DNA of 26,009 nt from a virus, in IMG/VR virus record IMGVR_UViG_3300042507_004468, positions 1 to 26,009 of that record. One strand, 5' to 3'. Below the pieces are notes generated by a model. That model saw nothing but the letters and a program-made list of their open reading frames with translations. It had not been told where the DNA came from and did no database searches. The stretch's first letter is position 1, and each line of letters starts with the position of its first letter. Both the position numbers and the translations under genes were made by a program. Positions 1,731 through 25,522 of this stretch are shown here, piece after piece.

Positions 1731-1970
1731 TTAGATAGGGAAATCATCGTCATCTTCGCTATCACCTACTTCGTCACCTGATACAGCGTCGTCTTCATCA
1801 TCGTCGTCATCGTCATCAGCAATATCTGCGGCATCTGTAGCAATTTCATCATCCTCGTCTCTAATCTCTTCAGCCTTTTTACGAGAAGCTATTTTCACAA
1901 GATCTTTTTCAGTGTCTGTCTCAAGAGTATTCTCCGAAACAAAACTTTCAAATGTTTTTATATGTTTCAT
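1731..1970 (-). CDS. Acidic prohead-core-like protein with capsid-targeting-like N-terminus
   Basis: A 79-residue protein in two parts. The N-terminus MKHIKTFESFVSEN closely resembles the capsid-targeting sequence of T4 internal head proteins, which is cut by the gp21 prohead protease after a hydrophobic-x-Glu; FVSE before Asn would be the equivalent site. From about residue 38 it becomes extremely acidic, including an uninterrupted run of eleven Asp/Glu residues. In T4, the prohead core protein gp67 is also about 80 residues with a D/E-rich tail. I infer a scaffold or core component or an ejected internal protein. It is not proven homologous to gp67, and no capsid or protease gene lies in this window. 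It is the first gene of the minus-strand operon and has a candidate late promoter 15 bases upstream of its ATG. Confidence 0.7.
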   Translation of the reverse strand: MKHIKTFESFVSENTLETDTEKDLVKIASRKKAEEIRDEDDEIATDAADIADDDDDDDEDDAVSGDEVGDSEDDDDFPI

Positions 1971-2021: not shown

Positions 2022-2031
2022 GATATATAGA
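2022..2031 (+). promoter_or_regulatory. Candidate late-type promoter, plus strand
   Basis: The sequence GATATATAGA, which shares GATATATA with the site at 10412, ends 15 bases before the ATG of the first baseplate gene. The distance matches that of the opposing minus-strand site. It fits the T4 late consensus less well because it lacks the terminal CT. Confidence 0.3.
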
Positions 2032-8615: not shown

Positions 8616-9392
8616 ATGGCAAGTAATCTAAACCCGGATACTTTAGAAAATAGTCTATTTATAGGAAAAGTAGTTGATAATGATGATCCTGAGAGGGAAG
8701 GGCGTTGTCGTGTAATGGTATATGGACTATTTGAAATAGAAAATCCTGTTTTTGGTCCTGATAACAAACCTACAGGGCAAACGATAAAATCAGAAGTCCC
8801 TGTTGAAACCATACCTTGGGCGCAACCAGGAGGAAGAAAGTTTTTTGCCGGGGGTGATGATGGAGGATTTGGAGACATCAGCATTCCAAAGATTGGCACT
8901 TTTGTACAAGTTAAATTTATTGAAGGCGACATATATGCACCGGAATACTATAACATACAAAATTTTAACAGTACCGCTCAAGCTGAAATAGCTAACAGTT
9001 ATCTAAACAGTCATATTTGGGGTTATGATGTAGATGAACAAGTCAAATTGTTTTATACTCCGTCAAAAGGTATGACAATCTTTCATAAAGATTCACAGAT
9101 CATTATTAACCCGGATTCTTCAATAACTATTGAGCATGCAGGCGGTGATAGCATCATAGAATTAGTAGGATCTACTATTAACATAGTGGCAACCAGTGAT
9201 GTAAATATCACAGCACCTAAAGCTGTTGTAGATGCTAATTCTATAGAACTTGGCGCGGGTGCATTTGAAGCTGTCATAAAAGGCACTTCTTTTCGAGACT
9301 TTTTTAATCTGCATACACACCCTGCTCCTAATACTCCGCCATCTGTTCAAATGCCATCGGCTTTATTAAGTAAAACAACAAAGACAAAATAA
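8616..9392 (+). CDS. Baseplate spike, OB-fold and beta-helix tip, no lysozyme (gp5/gpV-like)
   Basis: A 258-residue membrane-piercing spike. An N-terminal OB-fold at about residues 10-120 reads IGKVVDNDDPEREGRCRVMVYGL, then IPWAQPGG, then a Gly-rich loop, GTFVQVKFIEGD and APEYY, the usual course of gp5/gpV/VgrG OB domains. It is followed by a triple-stranded beta-helix stretch (about 150-235) with alternating strand repeats such as SQIIINPDSSITIEHAGG, INIVATSDVNITAP and VDANSIELGAG. Near the end, a HTHPAPNTPPSVQM segment is typical of phage spike tips. T4 gp5 carries a lysozyme domain between these parts; none is present here, so cell-wall digestion must be supplied elsewhere. It begins 2 bases after the preceding stop and ends in a TAATG overlap with the next gene. 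Confidence 0.88.
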   Translation: MASNLNPDTLENSLFIGKVVDNDDPEREGRCRVMVYGLFEIENPVFGPDNKPTGQTIKSEVPVETIPWAQPGGRKFFAGGDDGGFGDISIPKIGTFVQVKFIEGDIYAPEYYNIQNFNSTAQAEIANSYLNSHIWGYDVDEQVKLFYTPSKGMTIFHKDSQIIINPDSSITIEHAGGDSIIELVGSTINIVATSDVNITAPKAVVDANSIELGAGAFEAVIKGTSFRDFFNLHTHPAPNTPPSVQMPSALLSKTTKTK

Positions 9393-10411
9393 TGGAAAAA
9401 GATTACTTATTTGTAAAAAGAATTGGTGGTACTGTTTTTTATAGGTTAAAGGGTAGCGAAGAATCTATACAGTCAGAAGAAAATACTGATGACTTAAAAC
9501 AGTTTTTAATTGATAATGTAGAAGGTTATACCACGCCGTACCCTCCAGGGCCTCCTTTGCCACCTACCTCAAATCCTTATGTATTTGAAATCGTAACGGT
9601 TGAAGACAGAATTGAGGCAAAGATTACATACAAAGATCAACTATTAACAACCCAAACTTACTCAACAGATTTTACATATTCATTTGAAGGTGAGTCTTAT
9701 ACTGGAGAAGAAGCTGTATCAAAAGAACTTGAAATTCTTTCTACAACTGCGGGCTTTTTTGTAGACTCCCAAGCTTTTCCTGCTTACACACCTCCGCCTG
9801 AAGAAAACCTTGAAGATGCGATTAAAGCAAAAATTGAAGAGCTACAAAAACTAGGAGATGCTTTATTAGACGCAGCTGCAAATCTTTTACCAACTGAAGA
9901 TGACGTTATTGAGCTACTTGCACAAAAAGAACCAAGTATTGCTAAAGTTATTAAACTTATTCGTCAAGAACAAAAAGAGAACGAAGAGGCTGGAATGAGT
10001 AAAGAAGAAGCAAAAGAAAAAGCTGACGAAGAAATAAAGAAAATGCTTGAAAACTATAAAAAAGCATTAAAAGATTTTGTTAAAGCTGAGCTAAAGAAAA
10101 TGAAAGATAACATTACCGTTTTTGCTAAAGCTGTAAAAGCAATACCAGAGGATGTTGCCAATGCAATAGCAGCGATTGCTTTGCCTCCAGCTATTGGCGC
10201 GCCGCCTGTTGCTCCTAATCCTGCATATGCACTTCTATTGGTAAAACAAGTTAAAAATGCTTTAGGAGTTACTTTATCATCTGCTGTTGTAGCATTTGGT
10301 GTTGTTATGGCAAGTTCGCTTTTATTAAAAATAGAACTGCCTGAGCCGCTTGTTACTACATACACAGTTTTATTAACTCTTTCTACTGTGATAAATTCTC
10401 TACCGGTGTAA
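9392..10411 (+). CDS. Coiled-coil protein with hydrophobic C-terminus, behind the spike
   Basis: A 339-residue protein of unrecognised family. Parts: a small N-terminal domain (1-45); a proline-rich linker (PYPPGPPLPPTS, 49-60) leading to NPYVFEIVTVEDRIEAKITY, a beta hairpin-like domain to about 130; a long Glu/Lys/Ala-rich helix, probably coiled coil (138-250); then hydrophobic segments at about 254-270, 292-313 and 320-339. The last two are long enough to span a membrane. No N-terminal signal peptide is seen. The linker and PYVxEIV resemble the N-terminus of the protein at 2047. The ATG overlaps the spike stop, so the two are translationally coupled. It may be a virion protein that acts at the host membrane, but this is inferred only from position and hydrophobicity. 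The stop is followed at once by a candidate promoter. Confidence 0.7.
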   Translation: MEKDYLFVKRIGGTVFYRLKGSEESIQSEENTDDLKQFLIDNVEGYTTPYPPGPPLPPTSNPYVFEIVTVEDRIEAKITYKDQLLTTQTYSTDFTYSFEGESYTGEEAVSKELEILSTTAGFFVDSQAFPAYTPPPEENLEDAIKAKIEELQKLGDALLDAAANLLPTEDDVIELLAQKEPSIAKVIKLIRQEQKENEEAGMSKEEAKEKADEEIKKMLENYKKALKDFVKAELKKMKDNITVFAKAVKAIPEDVANAIAAIALPPAIGAPPVAPNPAYALLLVKQVKNALGVTLSSAVVAFGVVMASSLLLKIELPEPLVTTYTVLLTLSTVINSLPV

Positions 10412-10421
10412 GATATATACT
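10412..10421 (+). promoter_or_regulatory. Candidate T4-type late promoter before the S1 gene
   Basis: GATATATACT starts on the base after the preceding stop and lies 13 bases before the S1 gene's ATG. It matches 8 of 10 bases of the T4 late element TATAAATACT and repeats the ATATATACT core found on the minus strand at 1986-1995. The leader that follows is A-rich with no Shine-Dalgarno sequence. Together these suggest a new transcription unit starting here. Confidence 0.4.
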
Positions 10422-10434
10422 AAAATCAAAAAAT

Positions 10435-11646
10435 ATGTTAAATCAAAAAACAAAAATTACTGAAGAGTTTGATTGGCAAACTCTGGAAAATAGATCTAAA
10501 AAGGGTCTAAAGAAACCTAATCCAGCTATTCTGGAGAAGTATGGCGTACACATCTATAATCACGAGCCTTATGCTCTTGAGTATTATGAAATGGTCTTTT
10601 TAGGACAAGACTTTCATGATAAAGAACCCAGAATTGGGGAGTCTCGTAGGATTACAGGTGTTCTTTCGGTATCAAACCGCGAGATTGTTGTAAGCCTATC
10701 AGGGTTTCTTGATGCTGTGTTAGATCCTAAAGGAGAGAAGTTATTTTGCTCAACCATTGACACTACACCTGAAGGTTTAGTTGAATGGTTAAAAACAGAA
10801 GAAGGTGTTAATGCTTTCTTGTCACAAAACTTTCATGTTGTGATAGAAGCTACATCTCCCTTTGTTAAAGCTTCTATTTCTAAGGGACAAAGAGAAAAAA
10901 TGAAAGAAGAGTTCTTTGCACAAATTAAGAAACCTTCTAGCGCATATTACGGAAAAATTATCGAAAAGAACGGTGGTGGCTTTATGATTAATGTTTCAGG
11001 TGTAAACGGTTTCTTACCTGGATCTCTTGCTGCAACTAACATCGTTAGAGATTTTGATTCTATGATAGGTAAAGAAATTCCAGTAGTCGTTGAGGATTAC
11101 TTGAAAGACAGTGATACTTTTGTGTTTTCTTACAAGAAATATGTAAGTATGATTTTACCTACTAAGATTGATGAATTAGACATGGACAAAAAATATAGCG
11201 GAACTGTTACAGGAGTTGCTAAATATGGTGTCTTTGTAGAATTTGATGACATATTCACGGGACTTATTCATACTAGCAAAATGACACCTGAATGTAAAGA
11301 TAGATTTACAAAGTCGCAAATTAAAGCTGGTGAAGCTATAGATTTTTGGATAAAAGAAATTACAACCGATAAGAAAATAATTCTTACTGATGAAGATCCT
11401 TCTGTTCGAAGAGCAGAGATTGAAGAGTTTAAAGAAAAAAATCTAGGAACTATAAAAGGTGGCGAAGTTATATCAGTTCAACCATTTGGAACACTAGTAA
11501 AACTACAAAAGGACATTGTTGGTTTAATATCACAAAAGGAAATTAAAACCAAGAAAAAGAATTTTAGTATAGGGCAGACGGTTATGGTATCAATTGATCG
11601 TGTTCACAATGATAAGATATTCTTGTCTCTACCTGCTGAAAGCTAA
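10435..11646 (+). CDS. Ribosomal protein S1-like protein with three S1 domains
   Basis: A 403-residue RNA-binding protein. Three S1/OB-fold repeats are visible: about residues 169-236 (YYGKIIEKNGGGFMINVSG, then NGFLPGSLA), 250-320 (KYSGTVTGVAKYGVFVEFDD, then FTGLIHTSKM) and 337-400 (LGTIKGGEVISVQPFGTLVKL, then VGLISQKEI and KIFLSLP). The N-terminal 160 residues may hold a fourth, degenerate OB domain (GVLSVSNREIVVSLSGFLDAVL). In bacteria, S1 on the 30S subunit binds AU-rich leaders and matters most where Shine-Dalgarno pairing is weak. The genes here lack Shine-Dalgarno sequences, so the protein might favour phage mRNAs; that is inference. It could also act in RNA stability or replication. 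It is much shorter than a six-domain bacterial S1. It lies inside a baseplate cluster behind its own candidate promoter. Confidence 0.85.
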   Translation: MLNQKTKITEEFDWQTLENRSKKGLKKPNPAILEKYGVHIYNHEPYALEYYEMVFLGQDFHDKEPRIGESRRITGVLSVSNREIVVSLSGFLDAVLDPKGEKLFCSTIDTTPEGLVEWLKTEEGVNAFLSQNFHVVIEATSPFVKASISKGQREKMKEEFFAQIKKPSSAYYGKIIEKNGGGFMINVSGVNGFLPGSLAATNIVRDFDSMIGKEIPVVVEDYLKDSDTFVFSYKKYVSMILPTKIDELDMDKKYSGTVTGVAKYGVFVEFDDIFTGLIHTSKMTPECKDRFTKSQIKAGEAIDFWIKEITTDKKIILTDEDPSVRRAEIEEFKEKNLGTIKGGEVISVQPFGTLVKLQKDIVGLISQKEIKTKKKNFSIGQTVMVSIDRVHNDKIFLSLPAES

Positions 11647-11662
11647 AAACATCAATACGTAA

Positions 11663-13078
11663 ATGAAAGTTAAAAAGAATTACACGAAAACGGAAATTCT
11701 TGAAGGGGTCCGCATAGGTTTCGAATTTGAGTTCTATAGTTCATTAGATACATACGCAACCGCTAAAGACATAGCTAAATTTACTAAGAAACGTGTTGTT
11801 GTTCCGGTAGCAATTAGTGAATTGGGTGCAGAAAAGCCATTATATCATTCCCCTGTAAATCCTTCAGCAGACGTTTTTAAGTTAGAGCCTGACTACTCAG
11901 GAGGAAACAAGATGTGTGAACTTGTCACAGGTCCTATGAAATACTCCGAAGCGCGTAACATTTTGATAAAAGTTTTTGAATGGATATCTTCAAAAGGATA
12001 TACTAATGAAAGATGTTCTATTCACGTTAACATGAGTCTTGACGGTGACGTGATACCTACTAAGTTTACCATTCAAAATATAAACATACCTAAGTTTATA
12101 CTTAGCTTTGATGAAAAGCGTATTTTTGACGCGTTTCCTAAAAGAAAAGACAGTGTTTACGCTAGAAGTATTAAACAAATACGCCCAAACCAAGTTCGCT
12201 TTTATTCTCCTTCTCTTGAAGAATTTAGCCGAGCCACATTAAACTTACCAGCTGATGAAAAGTACTATGGAGTAAATTTCTTAAAAGCTGAAAAAGGTTA
12301 TTTAGAGTATCGCTATTTAGGAGGTGCTGACTATGAAAAGAGCTCTAAGAAAATACTTGATATTATAGAATACTTTGCTTTACATCTATATGATACGCTA
12401 AACTTTGAAGGTTTTACCGACAAAGAAAAACGCGACTTTAGAAAAATGATGGATCTTGACAATGAAATTTACGAAGGATTCGTTAAGTATGAGCTCTTTA
12501 AGAAAAAGTTTCCTGATATTGCTGTTAGTGTAGATATGAATGATGATCCACAAGTATTGGAATCTATGTGGGGAAATGTTAGAGAGAAACTGTTTGATCT
12601 TATCATAACAGGTAAGATGAAAAAAGGCGAGTTTAACTATGATACAGAAATTGGTCGTTATCAGTTAAAAAATACCAAGTTATCTAACTGCAGGGTTTGT
12701 GACATGGAGTTTATATCTTGTAAGATTGAAGGTATTATTGACAGATCTTGGTTTTTTGATTGCACTATTAAAAATTCTAGACTTTTAGATTGCTATGTTA
12801 TGAAAGGCAATACTATTGATTTTTCAAAGGTTGCTGAATGTGAATTACACGTAGGAAACACATTAAAAGATTGCTTTATAGAAAATAAAAGGCAAATCAT
12901 TAATTGTGAAGTTGTGGCGGGTGTTATACGAAATGGTGAAATTGGTAAACTGGCTAAAATTTCTAAAGATACCATGATCGTGCAAAATCAACCTGCTGAA
13001 ACAGGAAATTCCGGTAGCAGTTCTTTTAAAGATCCTGCACAAGAAAAGAAAAACAAAGGAAAAAAAGAAAAAGAGTAA
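11663..13078 (+). CDS. Putative amidoligase (COOH-NH2 ligase) with C-terminal beta-helix-like region
   Basis: A 471-residue protein. Residues about 12-240 match the putative amidoligase family: VRIGFEFEFYSS (16-27), EPDYSGGNKMCELVTGP (75-91), CSIHVNMSLDG (118-128) and GVNFLKAEKGYLEYRYLGGADY (203-224). These correspond to the family's GxEfE, D-S-ELv(S/T)P, H-V and vn-EfR elements. Such enzymes are predicted to be ATP-dependent ligases joining carboxyl and amino groups in peptides or on proteins; the substrate here is unknown. Residues about 327-425 are different: short repeating hydrophobic-polar steps with regularly placed Cys (LKNTKLSNCRVCDMEF, KIEGIIDRSWFFDCTI), like a pentapeptide-repeat or right-handed beta-helix. 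The tail is Lys/Glu-rich. The ATG lies 16 bases after the S1 stop, and the gene ends in a TAATG overlap with the next. Confidence 0.75.
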   Translation: MKVKKNYTKTEILEGVRIGFEFEFYSSLDTYATAKDIAKFTKKRVVVPVAISELGAEKPLYHSPVNPSADVFKLEPDYSGGNKMCELVTGPMKYSEARNILIKVFEWISSKGYTNERCSIHVNMSLDGDVIPTKFTIQNINIPKFILSFDEKRIFDAFPKRKDSVYARSIKQIRPNQVRFYSPSLEEFSRATLNLPADEKYYGVNFLKAEKGYLEYRYLGGADYEKSSKKILDIIEYFALHLYDTLNFEGFTDKEKRDFRKMMDLDNEIYEGFVKYELFKKKFPDIAVSVDMNDDPQVLESMWGNVREKLFDLIITGKMKKGEFNYDTEIGRYQLKNTKLSNCRVCDMEFISCKIEGIIDRSWFFDCTIKNSRLLDCYVMKGNTIDFSKVAECELHVGNTLKDCFIENKRQIINCEVVAGVIRNGEIGKLAKISKDTMIVQNQPAETGNSGSSSFKDPAQEKKNKGKKEKE

Positions 13079-13416
13079 TGAAGCATATTAAAACTTTTGA
13101 AAATTTTCTATCAGAGGCTCACTTGCCTTTTGATATTGAAAAAGAGTTAAGACTTGCAGGCGCTGAATTTATGTTCGACGAAGAACGCACAGAAGAGGAC
13201 GACGACAATCGTTTTGATACAGTGCAGGTGTATGTTTGGGAAGACCGCAGATCTGGAGCGTACTGGGTTGGAAAAGTTGGTGTTGGCGGAGGTTTCTACT
13301 ACCTTGAACTTCAAAAAGACGAAAGCGTGGAATTTTCCGAAAAATACCCAAAAAGCCAAAAGGCTTACTTTGAGCAAGACTGCGTAAACAGTCTCGGATT
13401 TGCTCCTCAACTTTAA
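13078..13416 (+). CDS. Small protein with capsid-targeting-like N-terminus
   Basis: A 112-residue protein starting MKHIKTFENFLSEA. This nearly repeats the start of the acidic protein at 1731-1970 and fits the T4 capsid-targeting sequence, including a gp21-like cleavage site (L-S-E before Ala). The rest is a small globular domain: an acidic loop (EERTEEDDDNRFD), then beta strands VQVYVWEDRR, YWVGKVGVGGGFYYLEL and a C-terminal helix. I do not recognise the fold. If the leader works as in T4, the mature protein of about 98 residues would be packaged inside the head and perhaps injected with the DNA. The DNA looks somewhat richer in G+C than its neighbours and has several long chance ORFs in other frames, which may mean recent acquisition. 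It starts in a TAATG overlap with the amidoligase. Confidence 0.7.
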   Translation: MKHIKTFENFLSEAHLPFDIEKELRLAGAEFMFDEERTEEDDDNRFDTVQVYVWEDRRSGAYWVGKVGVGGGFYYLELQKDESVEFSEKYPKSQKAYFEQDCVNSLGFAPQL

Positions 13417-13424
13417 GAATTGAC

Positions 13425-14156
13425 ATGACTAGAGCAGAACTTATACTTATGATGAACGATGAGATCACTGCAAGTGGTGCTCTACCTTATTCTATTCCGG
13501 AAAGAGAGGCTGAAAGAATCATTAACCAAGCGCTTAATTGGTTTTATGTTAATTACGGTCCTGCTGTTGAAACACAATACTATGTAATTAACAAAGAATG
13601 GTTTACTGATCCAGAGTTTAAGAGAACTCGCAGTATCTTATTACCTGACTGTGTTATCACGGTTTATGAATGTAGAGAAATTTCTGGAGGTGGACGTTTA
13701 GGAACTATTGACCGTGATTTTAGTGATAACCGTTTACTTGCTGCTGAAATCTATTTAGCGCCGTTTGCTTCCGACGATCTTGTACTTAGAACTGCACAAT
13801 ACTCTTATTGGGATCTTACTAAAGCTTTTATCTTAGAGCGTGTTCGTTATGACTATAACCGAAATACGCATCGCTTAAAGATTACCGGGCGTAATCCTAA
13901 AAAGAATCTTTTCATTGAAACTTATGTTAAGATTGAAGAAAACAAACTTTATGATGATTGGTTTTTTCAAAGATGGGTTATTGCACAAGGTAAAATTTCT
14001 CTTGGTAGAATACTTGGAGCATTTCAATTTAACTTACCTGGAGGTATACAAGTAAGCGGTGATTCTTTTCGTGATGAGGGTAAAGAAGAGATAGAACAAA
14101 TTAAAACTAAAATTGACGAGGAAAACTCGCCAGATTGGTTCTACATATTTCATTAA
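13425..14156 (+). CDS. Virion structural protein of the wedge module, exact role unknown
   Basis: A 243-residue protein. It has an N-terminal helical part (PEREAERIINQALNWFYVNYG), a central beta region (SILLPDCVITVYECREI), a Tyr/Arg-rich segment (RVRYDYNRNTHRLKITGRNP) and a C-terminal part with AQGKISLGRILGAFQFNLPGG and a helix ending PDWFYIFH. The pattern resembles conserved structural proteins I have seen beside gp25 and gp6 in T4-like phages, but I cannot attach a T4 gene number. The gene starts 8 bases after the previous stop, with gp25 starting 2 bases after its own stop, so it belongs to the wedge operon. No signal peptide, membrane segment or catalytic motif is visible. Baseplate or neck component is the likely role. 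Confidence 0.65.
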   Translation: MTRAELILMMNDEITASGALPYSIPEREAERIINQALNWFYVNYGPAVETQYYVINKEWFTDPEFKRTRSILLPDCVITVYECREISGGGRLGTIDRDFSDNRLLAAEIYLAPFASDDLVLRTAQYSYWDLTKAFILERVRYDYNRNTHRLKITGRNPKKNLFIETYVKIEENKLYDDWFFQRWVIAQGKISLGRILGAFQFNLPGGIQVSGDSFRDEGKEEIEQIKTKIDEENSPDWFYIFH

Positions 14157-14158
14157 TT

Positions 14159-14521
14159 ATGTTAAAAGAAATCTATTGTAGAAATGCTAATGATCCGTAC
14201 TATGTGTACACGAAGTTAGAAACAAATGAGCCTCTTGAAGCTCTTTTGACAAAACTTCGCATGATTATTTTTACAAACAGAGGTGAAGTTTTAGCTTATC
14301 CTGATTTAGGACTTGATTTGGATATAATGTTATTTGAACTAACATTTAACGCATACCAAATACAAAAAGAGTTTTATGCACAAGTTGCTAAGTTTGTTCC
14401 AGAAGCTCGTAACTATAATATCAATTTAGAAGTTAATTTTGTACCCGGAACTGTAAGAGATATTTGCTATATAGATATATACATAGACGGGACAAAGTAT
14501 TTAGGTGTCGTCGCAAAATAA
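14159..14521 (+). CDS. Baseplate wedge protein gp25-like
   Basis: A 120-residue gp25/gpW-family wedge protein, a core part of contractile injection systems that joins the wedge to the sheath initiation site. The family signature is clear: LEALLTKLRMIIFTNRGEVLAYPDLGLDLDIMLFEL, i.e. a helix, the T-x-x-GE step, a P-x-(L/F)G turn and the LFE helix. The C-terminal strands (LEVNFVPGTVRDICYIDIYI) complete the fold. The ATG at 14159 was chosen over the in-frame ATG at 14135. It follows the previous stop by two bases and gives a family-sized product (T4 gp25 is 132 residues), while the longer form would add eight residues overlapping the upstream gene. The next gene is gp6-like, the same order as in many contractile tails. 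Confidence 0.9.
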   Translation: MLKEIYCRNANDPYYVYTKLETNEPLEALLTKLRMIIFTNRGEVLAYPDLGLDLDIMLFELTFNAYQIQKEFYAQVAKFVPEARNYNINLEVNFVPGTVRDICYIDIYIDGTKYLGVVAK

Positions 14522-14530
14522 GACATCATA

Positions 14531-16228
14531 ATGGCTCTAAACATATTCAAATATAACCGTATAAAGTTTGACCAACTTTACGAAGATGCAAAATCTTATT
14601 TAACGGATAAGTTTTTACAAGTTGGTGATGTATTCTCTCCTGCTTCTGCGTACGGACAACTTTTAGGGGTTATTATAGATTTAGGAAAACTAATCTTTTA
14701 CTATGTTGAAGACAGTATAACCGAGCTAAACATATACACAGCTTCTCGAGATGTTTCTATTCGTAGCCTTGCTCGTATTGCTGGTCATAACCCCACAAGA
14801 GCTATTGCAGCTTCTGGCACTATTCGTTTAACATATAATGGAAATCCTATAGATATGTATGGGAATACTGTTATCATACCTAATTACACTCGTTTGGTAG
14901 ATAATGGTTCTGGTCTTACCTATACTATCACAACAGACACCGAAGAGATTCGAATGAATCTAACAGGCAAAAGTACTCTTGAAGTTAAGGTAACACAAGG
15001 TGTTATAGAAGCGCAACAAGTAACTGGTACTGGTCGAGCTTTACAAGCATACCCTATAAACGTCAAGAAAGGTAATCAAGTTGACAACTTTTTTGTTAAG
15101 GTTTATGTAAATACCGAAGAATGGAAAATATACGATTCTTTGTATGATATGCCTTATGAAGCAAAAGGCGTAGTTGTTAAAACAGGAATTTCTGGCGGAA
15201 TTGACTTATACTTTGGAAACGGTTTCTTTGGTAAAATTCCTGAACTAGGATCAACTATTCGTTGTGAATATCTTACAACATCAGGTAACTCTGGAAATAT
15301 CTTGCTAGGAGAAATTCCCCAGTTTATTTTTACCGATGACTGTTATGATACACAAGGAAATGCTATAAGCGTTAATGATGTAATAGATGTTAGTATATCA
15401 AAGCCTATTATTTTTGGATCTGACCAAGAACCTATAGTATTAACTCGGGTTTTAGCTCCTAAGACAAGTAGATCTTATGTTCTTGCTAATGCTGATTCGT
15501 ATGTTTATTTTTTAGAAAAGTTTAATATCTTTTCAGTCATTGATGCATTCAGCACATTGGATGATAATGATATAACAGATGATAACGTAGTTTATCTTTT
15601 CTTAATACCTGACGTCAATAAAAGAAAACCTACTAATGCTGACTATTTTACAGTACCTGTTGAAGCTTTCTTTTTAAGCGAAGATGAAAAAGAAAAAATA
15701 TACGATTTTATAGAGCAAAGCGGACAAAAGATTTTAACTACTATCATTAAGATACTTGATCCTGTTGTTAAAAGATATGTTCTTAATGTTAATATAACAG
15801 CTTATGAAGGGTTTAGCAAGGATACTATTCGTCAAGAAATTATTTCCAAGTGTAGTGATTACTTTTTAGCCAATCGTAGAAGAGACCGTATTCCCAAGTC
15901 CGATTTAATTTCAATCATCGAGTCTGTGCCTGGAGTAGATTCCGTAAATCTATGGTTTGTTTCACAAGAAAATGAATTCTTTAAAAGCAATCCTGAAAAT
16001 GCCAGTAAACCTGATATTGGCATAGATACTTTTGGCGATGTAATTATAGGAAGAGGAGAATATGCACTTGTTCGTGGAGGCTGGCCCGACAGAACAGGTT
16101 ATTTCTATTATGACGTATCGGATCAAACAAAACCAGGTAGTATAAACATTGCATTTGGTAAAGATACACCGAAATCCCTAAACATGGATATTCATAGAAT
16201 AAATGTAGGAAACATAAAGAACACTTAA
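14531..16228 (+). CDS. Baseplate wedge protein gp6-like (baseplate J family)
   Basis: A 565-residue wedge protein of the T4 gp6 / P2 gpJ type, which forms the ring connecting the wedges around the hub. The N-terminus shows the usual pattern: YLTDKFLQVGDVFSPASAYGQLLGVIIDL (about 22-50), then YYVEDSITELNIYTASRDVSIRSLARIAGHNPTRAIAASG, the helix pair and A-x-x-x-G entry to the first beta domain. Later come GGIDLYFGNGFFGKIPELGSTI (beta barrel core) and SKSDLISIIESVPGVDSVNLWF (around residues 455-485), which is typical of the J/gp6 C-terminal alpha-beta domain. Its length is close to T4 gp6 (660). The gene starts 9 bases after the gp25 stop and ends one base before the next start. Confidence 0.88.
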   Translation: MALNIFKYNRIKFDQLYEDAKSYLTDKFLQVGDVFSPASAYGQLLGVIIDLGKLIFYYVEDSITELNIYTASRDVSIRSLARIAGHNPTRAIAASGTIRLTYNGNPIDMYGNTVIIPNYTRLVDNGSGLTYTITTDTEEIRMNLTGKSTLEVKVTQGVIEAQQVTGTGRALQAYPINVKKGNQVDNFFVKVYVNTEEWKIYDSLYDMPYEAKGVVVKTGISGGIDLYFGNGFFGKIPELGSTIRCEYLTTSGNSGNILLGEIPQFIFTDDCYDTQGNAISVNDVIDVSISKPIIFGSDQEPIVLTRVLAPKTSRSYVLANADSYVYFLEKFNIFSVIDAFSTLDDNDITDDNVVYLFLIPDVNKRKPTNADYFTVPVEAFFLSEDEKEKIYDFIEQSGQKILTTIIKILDPVVKRYVLNVNITAYEGFSKDTIRQEIISKCSDYFLANRRRDRIPKSDLISIIESVPGVDSVNLWFVSQENEFFKSNPENASKPDIGIDTFGDVIIGRGEYALVRGGWPDRTGYFYYDVSDQTKPGSINIAFGKDTPKSLNMDIHRINVGNIKNT

Positions 16229-16229
16229 T

Positions 16230-16502
16230 ATGGCAATAGAACCAAGAAAAGGCAATTACTTAACAAGAAGAAGTTATTATGACGCAATGTATCATCAATT
16301 TGATGACTTAAAAAATACAGGGTTTGACTGGAGAAATAATTCCATTAAAAGATCTGTGTCTTCATACTTATTAAGTGACAGCAAGAGACTATCAATCGTT
16401 GAAAGATATCAAGACTTTATTACCTATATTATGAATTATGCAAGTCAAATTAAAAAGACTTTTAATTATACCGCAGATAAAAACTACAAGTACCTAAACT
16501 AA
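16230..16502 (+). CDS. Small structural-module protein, function unknown
   Basis: A 90-residue protein lying between gp6-like and gp7-like genes. It is rich in Tyr, Asn, Lys and Arg, with a helical centre (SIKRSVSSYLLSDSKRLSIVERYQDFITYIM). There is no recognised domain, signal or membrane segment. The gene begins one base after the gp6-like stop, and its stop overlaps the next ATG (TAATG), so it is translated with both wedge proteins. A small wedge-accessory role is plausible from its place alone. Confidence 0.7.
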   Translation: MAIEPRKGNYLTRRSYYDAMYHQFDDLKNTGFDWRNNSIKRSVSSYLLSDSKRLSIVERYQDFITYIMNYASQIKKTFNYTADKNYKYLN

Positions 16503-23071: not shown

Positions 23072-24968
23072 TAATGCTCCAGGGATCTTTTTTAAGTTTC
23101 AGGATCAAAACTTAAGAACTCCTTCGATTGAAGACGGGAACCCTACTGATAATACAGAGCAAGGAAAAATCTTTACATCAGAAATTGATTCTACATCAGG
23201 TTATTCTATTGATTATGCAGCCACTATAACAGGCTGGAATAATACAAAAAATTCAACAGGCGGAGAGATATCATATCTTATTAGTTTTACATATGATGTA
23301 GATTACCTGCAGGCTATTCCAGTTGTTTTAGATAACCCAGGCCAGTTTGGATCGGACATCATAAAGGAAAATGACATATTTTTAATTTGGTCTCGTAGCG
23401 GTAGCAACGATTATGTTAGAGGATTTGTTTCAAAAATAATAGACATTGTTACTACTCCTTATGCAGGTCCTCCTGCGGGTGTAACTTATGATATAGTTGC
23501 CCAAGTTACCGTAACACAAGGAACACCTAATAGCGTTTTTGCTGATGTGACTAATGGTGATATATTTTTGTGGAAAAGACAACGATTTCAAGATGAAACT
23601 ACTTTTCAAGAAGCTTATCCACCGGTTAACTTAAAAATGACTAAAGATGATAACGGAAATCTTTATGCTTATTGGGATGATATAAATGAAGAAAGCCGCA
23701 GATATAGAATTTACTTTAGAAACCCTACTACTTATCCACCAAGTGGAACTATCTATAACGTTTTAGGAAGTATAGCAAATAGCAATACTTCTTTAAGTGT
23801 ATTTTTAGATGAAACAAACCCTGGTGCTGGGCAACTAACCAGCATAAAGATTAACCAACCGGGTGTAAACATGCATAGCGATCGTTCAGTTGATATTATC
23901 GGAACAGGAACAGGTGCTACTGCTCGAACTAATTTAGACCCTAAAGGATCTTTAACCATTAATGAATATGTGGTCAAAGACGCAACGTCTTTAGGCGCTA
24001 TAAACACAGCTTTTCAGTTAACTCCTTTTGGGCAACCTATTGCAACTTTTACTAATACAACCATCCCACCTGGTCCTTTAGCAAACGGCGTGTATGTTGG
24101 TTGTCCTTCAACTAGCACAGGCGCAGGAATTGGTGCTACGTTTAACATTACGGTAGCAAGTGGTGCAATTACATCAATAACTCTAAATAACCCAGGAACT
24201 CGTTATAGATTAACCAACGTATTAACTATAGCTGGAACAGCTTTCGGTGGAGCTAGTCCTGCTGATGACTTAACAATAACTTTAAATACACTAGTCCCTA
24301 CAAGTTACATCAATGTTGCTTCTACAAGCGCAGGACCGGGTATAGGTGCAACTTTTAACGTTACATATAATTCATTAGGAGTAGGAAATGTTGCTATCAA
24401 TAATCCTGGTTGGGGCTATACTCCTGGCAATCCTATTTATATTGCTAACGCTTTGTTAGGTGGACCGCCGGCTACTGATTATTTGCTATCCGCGGGTAAT
24501 AACGGTCCAACTATTAGAGTTTACTCACAAAACATGAGAGAAGGATATTCTGATTATCCTGTACCTAATGTAAGATCTTATGTAGAAGGTCTACCTGCTG
24601 CTGGAAATACAACGGACTACTATGTAGGTAGTGTTTCACAAATTATGCCAGGAAATAATCGTTACTTATACATCAATGTTTATGATGCTAAGACAGGTTC
24701 ACCGGTGCTCTTTCCTTTAGGATATGTTATGCCTAACACTCTTAAAACACACGATGGCATTGAATTGCTAACAGTAGGGTCAGGATATACTAAGAAAGCA
24801 AGAGCAAATGTTAAAGTAATTCCTAATGATGTAAGGTGGTTTTATGATTCTAGCGTTTTTGGTCCACCGCCTATTTCTAACACATGGCCTTGGTCAGTGT
24901 GTGCAATTTACGATGAGATAAATAAAAAATACACAGAATGGTCAATAGAAGATTACATAAAATTCTAA
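23058..24968 (+). CDS. Baseplate/tail structural protein with glycine-rich beta repeats
   Basis: A 636-residue protein following the gp7-like gene, the place of gp8 in T4. I cannot show homology to gp8 (334 residues). The N-terminal half is beta-rich, with DIFLIWSRSGSNDYVRGFVSKIIDIV and an Ig/fibronectin-like piece (PPVNLKMTKDDNGNLYAYWDDINEESRRYRIYFRNP, about 190-226). Two clear tandem repeats of about 65 residues lie at about 346-481, listed separately, and a diverged third piece lies at about 258-300. The C-terminal 100 residues are again globular (MREGYSDYPVPNVRSYVEG, and DDVRW-like NDVRWFYDSSVFG). The protein is probably an outer wedge component. It overlaps the upstream gene by 14 bases and the downstream HAD gene by 31 bases. 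Confidence 0.75.
   Translation: MRLRDNAPGIFFKFQDQNLRTPSIEDGNPTDNTEQGKIFTSEIDSTSGYSIDYAATITGWNNTKNSTGGEISYLISFTYDVDYLQAIPVVLDNPGQFGSDIIKENDIFLIWSRSGSNDYVRGFVSKIIDIVTTPYAGPPAGVTYDIVAQVTVTQGTPNSVFADVTNGDIFLWKRQRFQDETTFQEAYPPVNLKMTKDDNGNLYAYWDDINEESRRYRIYFRNPTTYPPSGTIYNVLGSIANSNTSLSVFLDETNPGAGQLTSIKINQPGVNMHSDRSVDIIGTGTGATARTNLDPKGSLTINEYVVKDATSLGAINTAFQLTPFGQPIATFTNTTIPPGPLANGVYVGCPSTSTGAGIGATFNITVASGAITSITLNNPGTRYRLTNVLTIAGTAFGGASPADDLTITLNTLVPTSYINVASTSAGPGIGATFNVTYNSLGVGNVAINNPGWGYTPGNPIYIANALLGGPPATDYLLSAGNNGPTIRVYSQNMREGYSDYPVPNVRSYVEGLPAAGNTTDYYVGSVSQIMPGNNRYLYINVYDAKTGSPVLFPLGYVMPNTLKTHDGIELLTVGSGYTKKARANVKVIPNDVRWFYDSSVFGPPPISNTWPWSVCAIYDEINKKYTEWSIEDYIKF
24093..24500 (+). repeat. Two tandem ~65-residue glycine-rich protein repeats
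   Basis: Copy one (24093-24293) and copy two (24306-24500) share ST(S)xGxGIGATFN(I/V)T, then a strand ending (L/I)NNPGxxY, then an xIAxxxxGG block. About four residues separate them. Similar G-A-T-F-N...NPG-GY modules also occur in the gp7-like protein (near 16590-16740 and 18660-18720 on the DNA). They look like small beta-sandwich or beta-prism decorations that phages shuffle between structural proteins. The copies differ considerably in DNA, so the duplication is not recent. Confidence 0.75.
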
Positions 24969-25522
24969 ATGAAGCAGTCATTAAAGGCAGCCAGCCTAAC
25001 AGGCTTATTGTCTTTGACTTGGACGACACGCTAATTATTTCAGCCGCTAAGATTAAAGTATTAAATCCTAAGAATCAAAGAGTTATATTGGAACTAACTC
25101 CTGCTGAGTTTAATCACTATTCGCATGATCCAAAAAATACTCTTTCTTTTGCGGAATTTGAAGATGCAGAAGTTTTAAGAAAAAGCACATTCATAACAGA
25201 AATTGTAGACCAGTTACTCAACTACTATAAAAGTGGAGTTCACGTATCTATTGTAACAGCAAGATCAAGCTCCAAGCTGATTCGCAATTTCTTTTTAGAA
25301 AATGGCATTGATATACACCCAGATTTAGTTATAGCTGTTAATGATCCGCAATACAAATTTACTGGAAGCATTGCAGAAAGAAAAAAACAAGCTATACATA
25401 AACTTGTTGAAGACGGTTACACCGACTTTATTTTCTTTGACGATAATGATGAAAACCTAGCGCTTGCTAAGGAAATTGAAAACGAAAAGGATGTAAGAGT
25501 CCAAACAATCAAAGTAGGATGA
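24938..25522 (+). CDS. HAD-superfamily phosphatase
   Basis: A 194-residue HAD-like hydrolase. Motif I is VFDLDDTL (about 25-32) with the nucleophile Asp and the acid/base Asp two residues on. Motif II is the Thr of SIVTARSS (about 103-110). A conserved Lys candidate lies in AERKKQAIHKL. Motif IV is FFDDND (about 166-171), binding Mg2+. There is little cap domain, so a small or macromolecular phosphate substrate such as a nucleotide or polynucleotide 3'-phosphate is possible. The substrate is not decided by the sequence. The ATG at 24938 overlaps the previous gene by 31 bases; no in-frame ATG closer to motif I exists, so this start is kept. The stop overlaps the PhoH-like start (ATGA). Confidence 0.8.
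   Translation: MVNRRLHKILNEAVIKGSQPNRLIVFDLDDTLIISAAKIKVLNPKNQRVILELTPAEFNHYSHDPKNTLSFAEFEDAEVLRKSTFITEIVDQLLNYYKSGVHVSIVTARSSSKLIRNFFLENGIDIHPDLVIAVNDPQYKFTGSIAERKKQAIHKLVEDGYTDFIFFDDNDENLALAKEIENEKDVRVQTIKVG

Follow-up and report, generated by a model that had tools for sequence, protein, structure and literature searches.

The window analyzed here, a 26-kb IMG/VR fragment of 26,009 nucleotides, carried three adjacent, co-oriented genes within a T4-type baseplate locus, and these encoded an S1 protein, an amidoligase-type enzyme and a small protein with a T4-type capsid-targeting sequence (CTS) as its N-terminal tag (Table 1). The three ORFs were located as given in a preliminary description of this DNA, and their spacing was also confirmed: the S1 and amidoligase genes were separated by 16 bases, and the amidoligase gene overlapped the small ORF in TAATG. 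An 8-nt gap separated the small ORF from the downstream baseplate gene at 13425. Mismatches to relatives were concentrated at the third codon position in all three ORFs, and thus all three are real coding genes. The baseplate flanks described earlier were observed as well, with a gp5-like spike before the three genes and gp25-like and gp6-like genes after them; gp7 was assigned by position alone.

Table 1. Positions of the genes and sequence features in the 26,009-nt window.
Feature	Position	Strand	Remarks
Second tagged ORF of the window	1731-1970	-	79 aa, very acidic, begins MKHIKTFESFVSEN
Second GATATATA copy	2022-2029		5' of the spike block
gp5-like spike	8616-9392
GATATATA promoter-like motif	10412-10419	+	15 nt 5' of the S1 start
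S1 gene	10435-11646	+	403 aa; phage bS1 homologue, bS1 domains 1-4 in order
Amidoligase_2-type GS-like ligase gene	11663-13078	+	471 aa
Small CTS-tagged protein gene	13078-13416	+	112 aa; tag MKHIKTFENFLSE/A
Capsid-targeting tag, T4-type, coding segment	13078-13116	+	residues 1-13, predicted cleavage after E13
Baseplate genes 3' of the three genes: Ad2-like, gp25-like, gp6-like, 90-aa ORF	13425-16502	+	PHROG matches
gp25-like gene	14135-14521	+	PHROG match
gp6-like gene	14531-16228	+	PHROG match

The motif GATATATA was found 5' of S1 in the window and in all 13 relatives that were compared. In a clade without S1, it was located immediately 5' of the amidoligase gene, and the three genes accordingly look like the opening part of the baseplate-wedge operon. 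Across 11 contigs, 105 of the 168 GATATATA sites were located no more than 40 nt 5' of a same-strand start, compared with about 3.6 expected by position, and GATATATA is a lineage-wide promoter-like motif. The window alone contained three copies against 1.7 expected, a count that is not unusual; one copy was 5' of the spike block, one was 5' of S1, and one was within the gp25-like gene. No copy was found directly 5' of 13425 in the window. With this placement, the three genes and the wedge genes look like one transcription unit, which would be transcribed late. The three genes had earlier been credited with a candidate promoter of their own, and the motif supports this. It marks the start of the baseplate-wedge operon and not of a private cassette. 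A generic scan of the region for sigma-70 promoters found 22, which is at the chance level (17.3 ± 4.6 expected).

The S1-family assignment made earlier was supported by Pfam (S1, E 4.7e-20, three stretches). Alignment of the S1 profile A2 with 30S bS1 chains placed query residues 75-397 on residues 28-345 of 9qqq_V and query residues 74-303 on residues 27-243 of 4q7j_D. The alignment spanned bS1 domains 1-4 and took in the D2 motif FLPGSL, and ordered S1 domains with the D1-D2 ribosome-binding half were present in the window protein. Relatives of this protein were found in Lak phages and in the huge phages LR756500-504 and LR745206. The rpS1 of huge phages has already been reported and linked with rare Shine-Dalgarno sites (Al-Shayeb 2020, PMC7162821), and the S1 protein is a known kind of ribosomal hijacker. 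Phage rpS1 and few Shine-Dalgarno sites are common to both cases, whereas the S1 gene described here was embedded in a baseplate operon behind a conserved promoter-like motif. A Shine-Dalgarno core preceded none of the 17 window genes; in relatives its frequency was 0-9%, about the shuffled level, compared with 55% in T4. Because this absence was also seen in contigs without detected S1, it is not tied to S1, and it fits a lineage-wide or host property more than an S1 effect. The domain alignment suggests that S1 is likely to act on the ribosome. Its D1-D2-like half would attach it to host 30S subunits, where it would favor initiation on the A-rich late mRNAs of the phage, which are without Shine-Dalgarno sites. 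Phage bS21 is expressed with late structural genes and has been proposed to favor late mRNAs (PMC9723584). Like S1 here, it is a translation-initiation protein sited among late structural genes, but it is another ribosomal protein, and its gene lies in the head region and on the other strand. The two best genome matches to S1 (38% and 29%) were both in MAG contigs, L232 and L233, which are labelled Erysipelotrichaceae and Clostridium and encode S1 proteins akin to the phage family. These are possibly phage contigs binned with bacteria, and S1 did not point to a clear host.

The window amidoligase scored 18.3 bits against Amidoligase_2 (PF12224) in Pfam, below the gathering cut-off of 22, and the name GS-like or amidoligase-type therefore rests on the fold and the motifs. 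Eight of the 23 family members matched Amidoligase_2 at E<=0.01. In the AlphaFold (AF2) model, which had a pLDDT of 83, the catalytic part matched glutamine synthetase in Foldseek (E 4e-5) and the C-terminal part matched an MfpA-type pentapeptide-repeat protein (1e-3). The pentapeptide-type β-helix extended over approximately residues 325-440 and was followed by a charged low-complexity tail. Residues E21, E23, E86, E215, and R217 did not vary among 23 homologues with identities as low as 29%. The family matches and the predicted fold uphold the enzyme type that was first suggested. The GS-like catalytic fold and the conserved ExE and ExR residues are common to the window protein and the COOH-NH2 ligases of Amidoligase_2; in contrast to these ligases, the window protein is fused to a pentapeptide-type β-helix and is tied to baseplate loci. 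In close clades, the gene was flanked by the spike block and the Ad2-gp25-gp6 block. It was also near baseplate genes in huge phages and in nearly all relatives overall, and it kept this proximity with or without an adjoining tagged protein. The label “non-structural” given to the cassette was not supported. The amidoligase gene is an ordinary member of the baseplate operon; judged by its genomic context, the amidoligase is a phage tail-locus enzyme and not a cassette passenger. A scan of 84,980 species genomes of bacteria and archaea, made with only two patterns, confirmed no relative. A literature search limited to openly available journal papers found no paper tying an amidoligase to baseplate function. 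The tail-locus placement is a firm starting point for a substrate search.

With a GS-like active site and a β-helix as a docking domain, the amidoligase would most likely act in assembly, by creating an amide bond on a tail or baseplate protein. Both the catalysis and its target are predictions, and action on a virion protein is put forward as a tentative possibility. The enzyme could instead be a structural pseudo-enzyme retained for its β-helix, in keeping with the loss of the histidine of the HxN motif in the S1-less clade and with its nearly constant closeness to structural genes; the invariance of the glutamate and arginine residues named above speaks against this reading, which appears rather doubtful. 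Alternatively, the enzyme could act during entry or lysis, with the cell wall or a host peptide as its target instead of a virion protein. Although the gene adjoins the gp5-like spike block, Pfam found no wall-binding domain, and such a target is unlikely.

The slot that follows the amidoligase and precedes the next baseplate gene was variable. The small protein of the window was found in only five other contigs; the slot held unrelated tagged proteins in L009, L011, and L018, degenerate tags in L002, L003, and L006, and untagged ORFs in L017 and L020, and no ORF was found there in the remaining compared contigs. The part of the small protein after the tag was predicted to form a β-meander plus a helix. 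No fold was assigned to it, with no match at E<=0.001 and a model pLDDT of 67. The N-terminus, MKHIKTFENFLSE/A, fits the T4 CTS, in agreement with the earlier view of a head-targeted protein. In T4, CTS residues 4, 7, 8, and 10 are functional, with residues 4 and 7 directing targeting and residues 8 and 10 directing processing (PMC9026906). The window tag aligned with the T4 CTS MKTYQEFIAE/A (T4 letters from AF158101), and its residues F7, F10, L11, and E13 matched the T4 pattern of aromatic or hydrophobic residues at positions 4, 7, and 8 and E at position 10.

The tag statistics cover the window together with ten related contigs. In this set, the tag opened 36 of the 1224 ORFs (shuffled mean 0.05, maximum 1) and was present at none of the 4922 internal Met positions. 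A matrix built only from these 36 tags was applied to 1580 Met-started stretches of T4 and ranked IPII and IPIII joint first, gp61.1 third, and IPI sixth; T4 Alt, gp67, and gp68 gave no score. With the same matrix, 22 Met positions, some of them nested, were found in 400 kb of a 735-kb phage, and 100 kb of T5 yielded none. At least 120 stretches of IMG/VR contained a DNA pattern for MKHIK.FE.F. Among the matches listed (151 protein matches), residue 13 was E in 107 and residue 11 was I, V, L, or M in 107, and these free positions of the pattern agree with the T4 processing positions.

Co-occurrence with head genes was counted among tagged contigs alone: in 24 tag-bearing contigs of at least 100 kb, chosen for size, a gp23-type capsid gene was present in 18 and an S77 (T4-type) prohead protease in 17. 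LR756500 contained the gp23-type capsid, the S77 prohead protease, and a T4-type portal. An S77 protease does not imply the tag, since Lak-A2 carries the protease and no tag was found by the matrix in 400 kb of it. The window and its closest contigs, all of which are fragments, yielded no prohead protease, and the window fragment also yielded no gp23-type capsid. Taken as sequence comparisons, these results argue that the tag is very probably a working CTS. Many tagged proteins resemble enzymes able to act in the infected cell, as would suit a signal for another destination, such as a phage-made compartment or a membrane, but this is improbable given the agreement of the tag positions with the functional residues of the T4 CTS, the first rank of T4 IPII and IPIII, and the co-occurrence with gp23 and the S77 protease. 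As a T4-type CTS, the first 13 residues would dock the small protein in the prohead core as loadable cargo, and the prohead protease would cleave it after LSE. The mature protein would then enter the head with the DNA and be injected, with a probable function in host takeover or counter-defence.

The arrangement resembles that of T4 IPI, IPII, and IPIII (PMC9026906, PMC3012670), in which variable cargo likewise follows a constant, short N-terminal tag with the same key residues and a protease site after E, and many of the tagged genomes also carry T4-type capsid and protease. It differs in that the tag is extended, usually as MKHIK or MKYIK, and in that the cargoes, read from the sequences of uncultured phages of up to 735 kb, are many more and more enzyme-like. 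In T4 itself, the starts of gp61.1 (AF158101 18966-19130) and of a frame in the uvsW end (AF158101 114210-114440) scored as CTS-like, above IPI, and both are candidates for unrecognised internal proteins.

The 112 tagged proteins fell into 80 clusters by sequence at E 1e-3, a threshold at which remote kin may be split. Their domains included GNAT, cytidylyltransferase, PAP2, GDSL, PNK phosphatase, metallopeptidase-VWA, and 2H phosphoesterase. Three tagged proteins (L200 8009-8554, L150 982-1518, and L183 1897-2439) each carried a pair of HxT-type motifs like those of 2H phosphoesterases. A direct relationship between the tagged 2H proteins and T4 57B/Acb1 was rejected, as phmmer found none and Pfam Acb1 (anti-CBASS) gave a single match in the cargo set (4e-5). 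The presence of the same tag on dozens of unrelated proteins suggests a general route by which proteins could be injected alongside the viral genome. Neither phage rpS1 nor the T4 CTS is new, and what stands out is how broadly a T4-type CTS is used in uncultured giant phages; as far as sequence can tell, this head-loading tag is apparently far more widespread in giant phages than the papers searched describe. No paper on a T4-type CTS in huge phages was found in the literature search of the scope given above. There is a good chance that one short tag serves T4-type giant phages as a general head-loading code for dozens of enzymes and counter-defence candidates, and that the injected set can be read from sequence. 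The cargo would comprise acetyltransferases, cytidylyltransferases, PAP2, GDSL, PNK phosphatase, and metallopeptidase-VWA proteins, together with the 2H phosphoesterases with their weak Acb1 match. Should the tag prove to work as a CTS, the proteins injected by giant phages as infection begins could be listed from a simple N-terminal motif, and the contents of the head, a wet-lab question, would become predictable from sequence. Most of these proteins are without known function, and some may act against host defences.

The three genes had been proposed to form a coherent accessory system, and comparison of gene neighbourhoods did not support this. Five searched fragments carried the amidoligase without S1 on the contig; since these contigs are fragments, S1 may lie outside them. 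In Lak-A2, S1 was present and no amidoligase match was detected. The distance between S1 and the amidoligase was 49-443 kb in four huge phages. In the amidoligase tree, the S1-adjacent rows grouped together (89/82), as did the S1-less rows (100/100) and the huge phages with distant S1 (100/100). The adjacency of S1 and amidoligase thus held mainly in one clade, and the genes were scattered elsewhere, which counts in part against the earlier proposal; their linkage is mainly a clade feature that is broken elsewhere. Neither synteny nor the tree showed co-occurrence and joint movement of the three genes. Although the genes are adjacent, co-oriented, tightly spaced, and behind one promoter motif, and S1 is also 1.3 kb from the amidoligase in LR756500, every gene was found without the others, and the small protein in only five other contigs. 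A single three-gene system, with the small protein or a ribosomal target as the substrate of the amidoligase and S1 in control of translation, is highly improbable and was rejected on synteny. Instead, the stretch probably forms the start of a T4-type giant phage's late baseplate-wedge operon, with three separable modules acting as proposed above.

The gene between the gp5-like spike and S1 (window 9392-10411) ranged from 105 to 1626 aa among relatives, with counterparts in L003, L004, L007, L011, L012, and L037. In L020, an ORF with a GIY-YIG endonuclease-like start (435-1547) was located between the gp5-like gene and the next gene. At the end of the baseplate block, the window encoded a polynucleotide-kinase-like protein (24938-25522; phrog_415, 1.6e-12).
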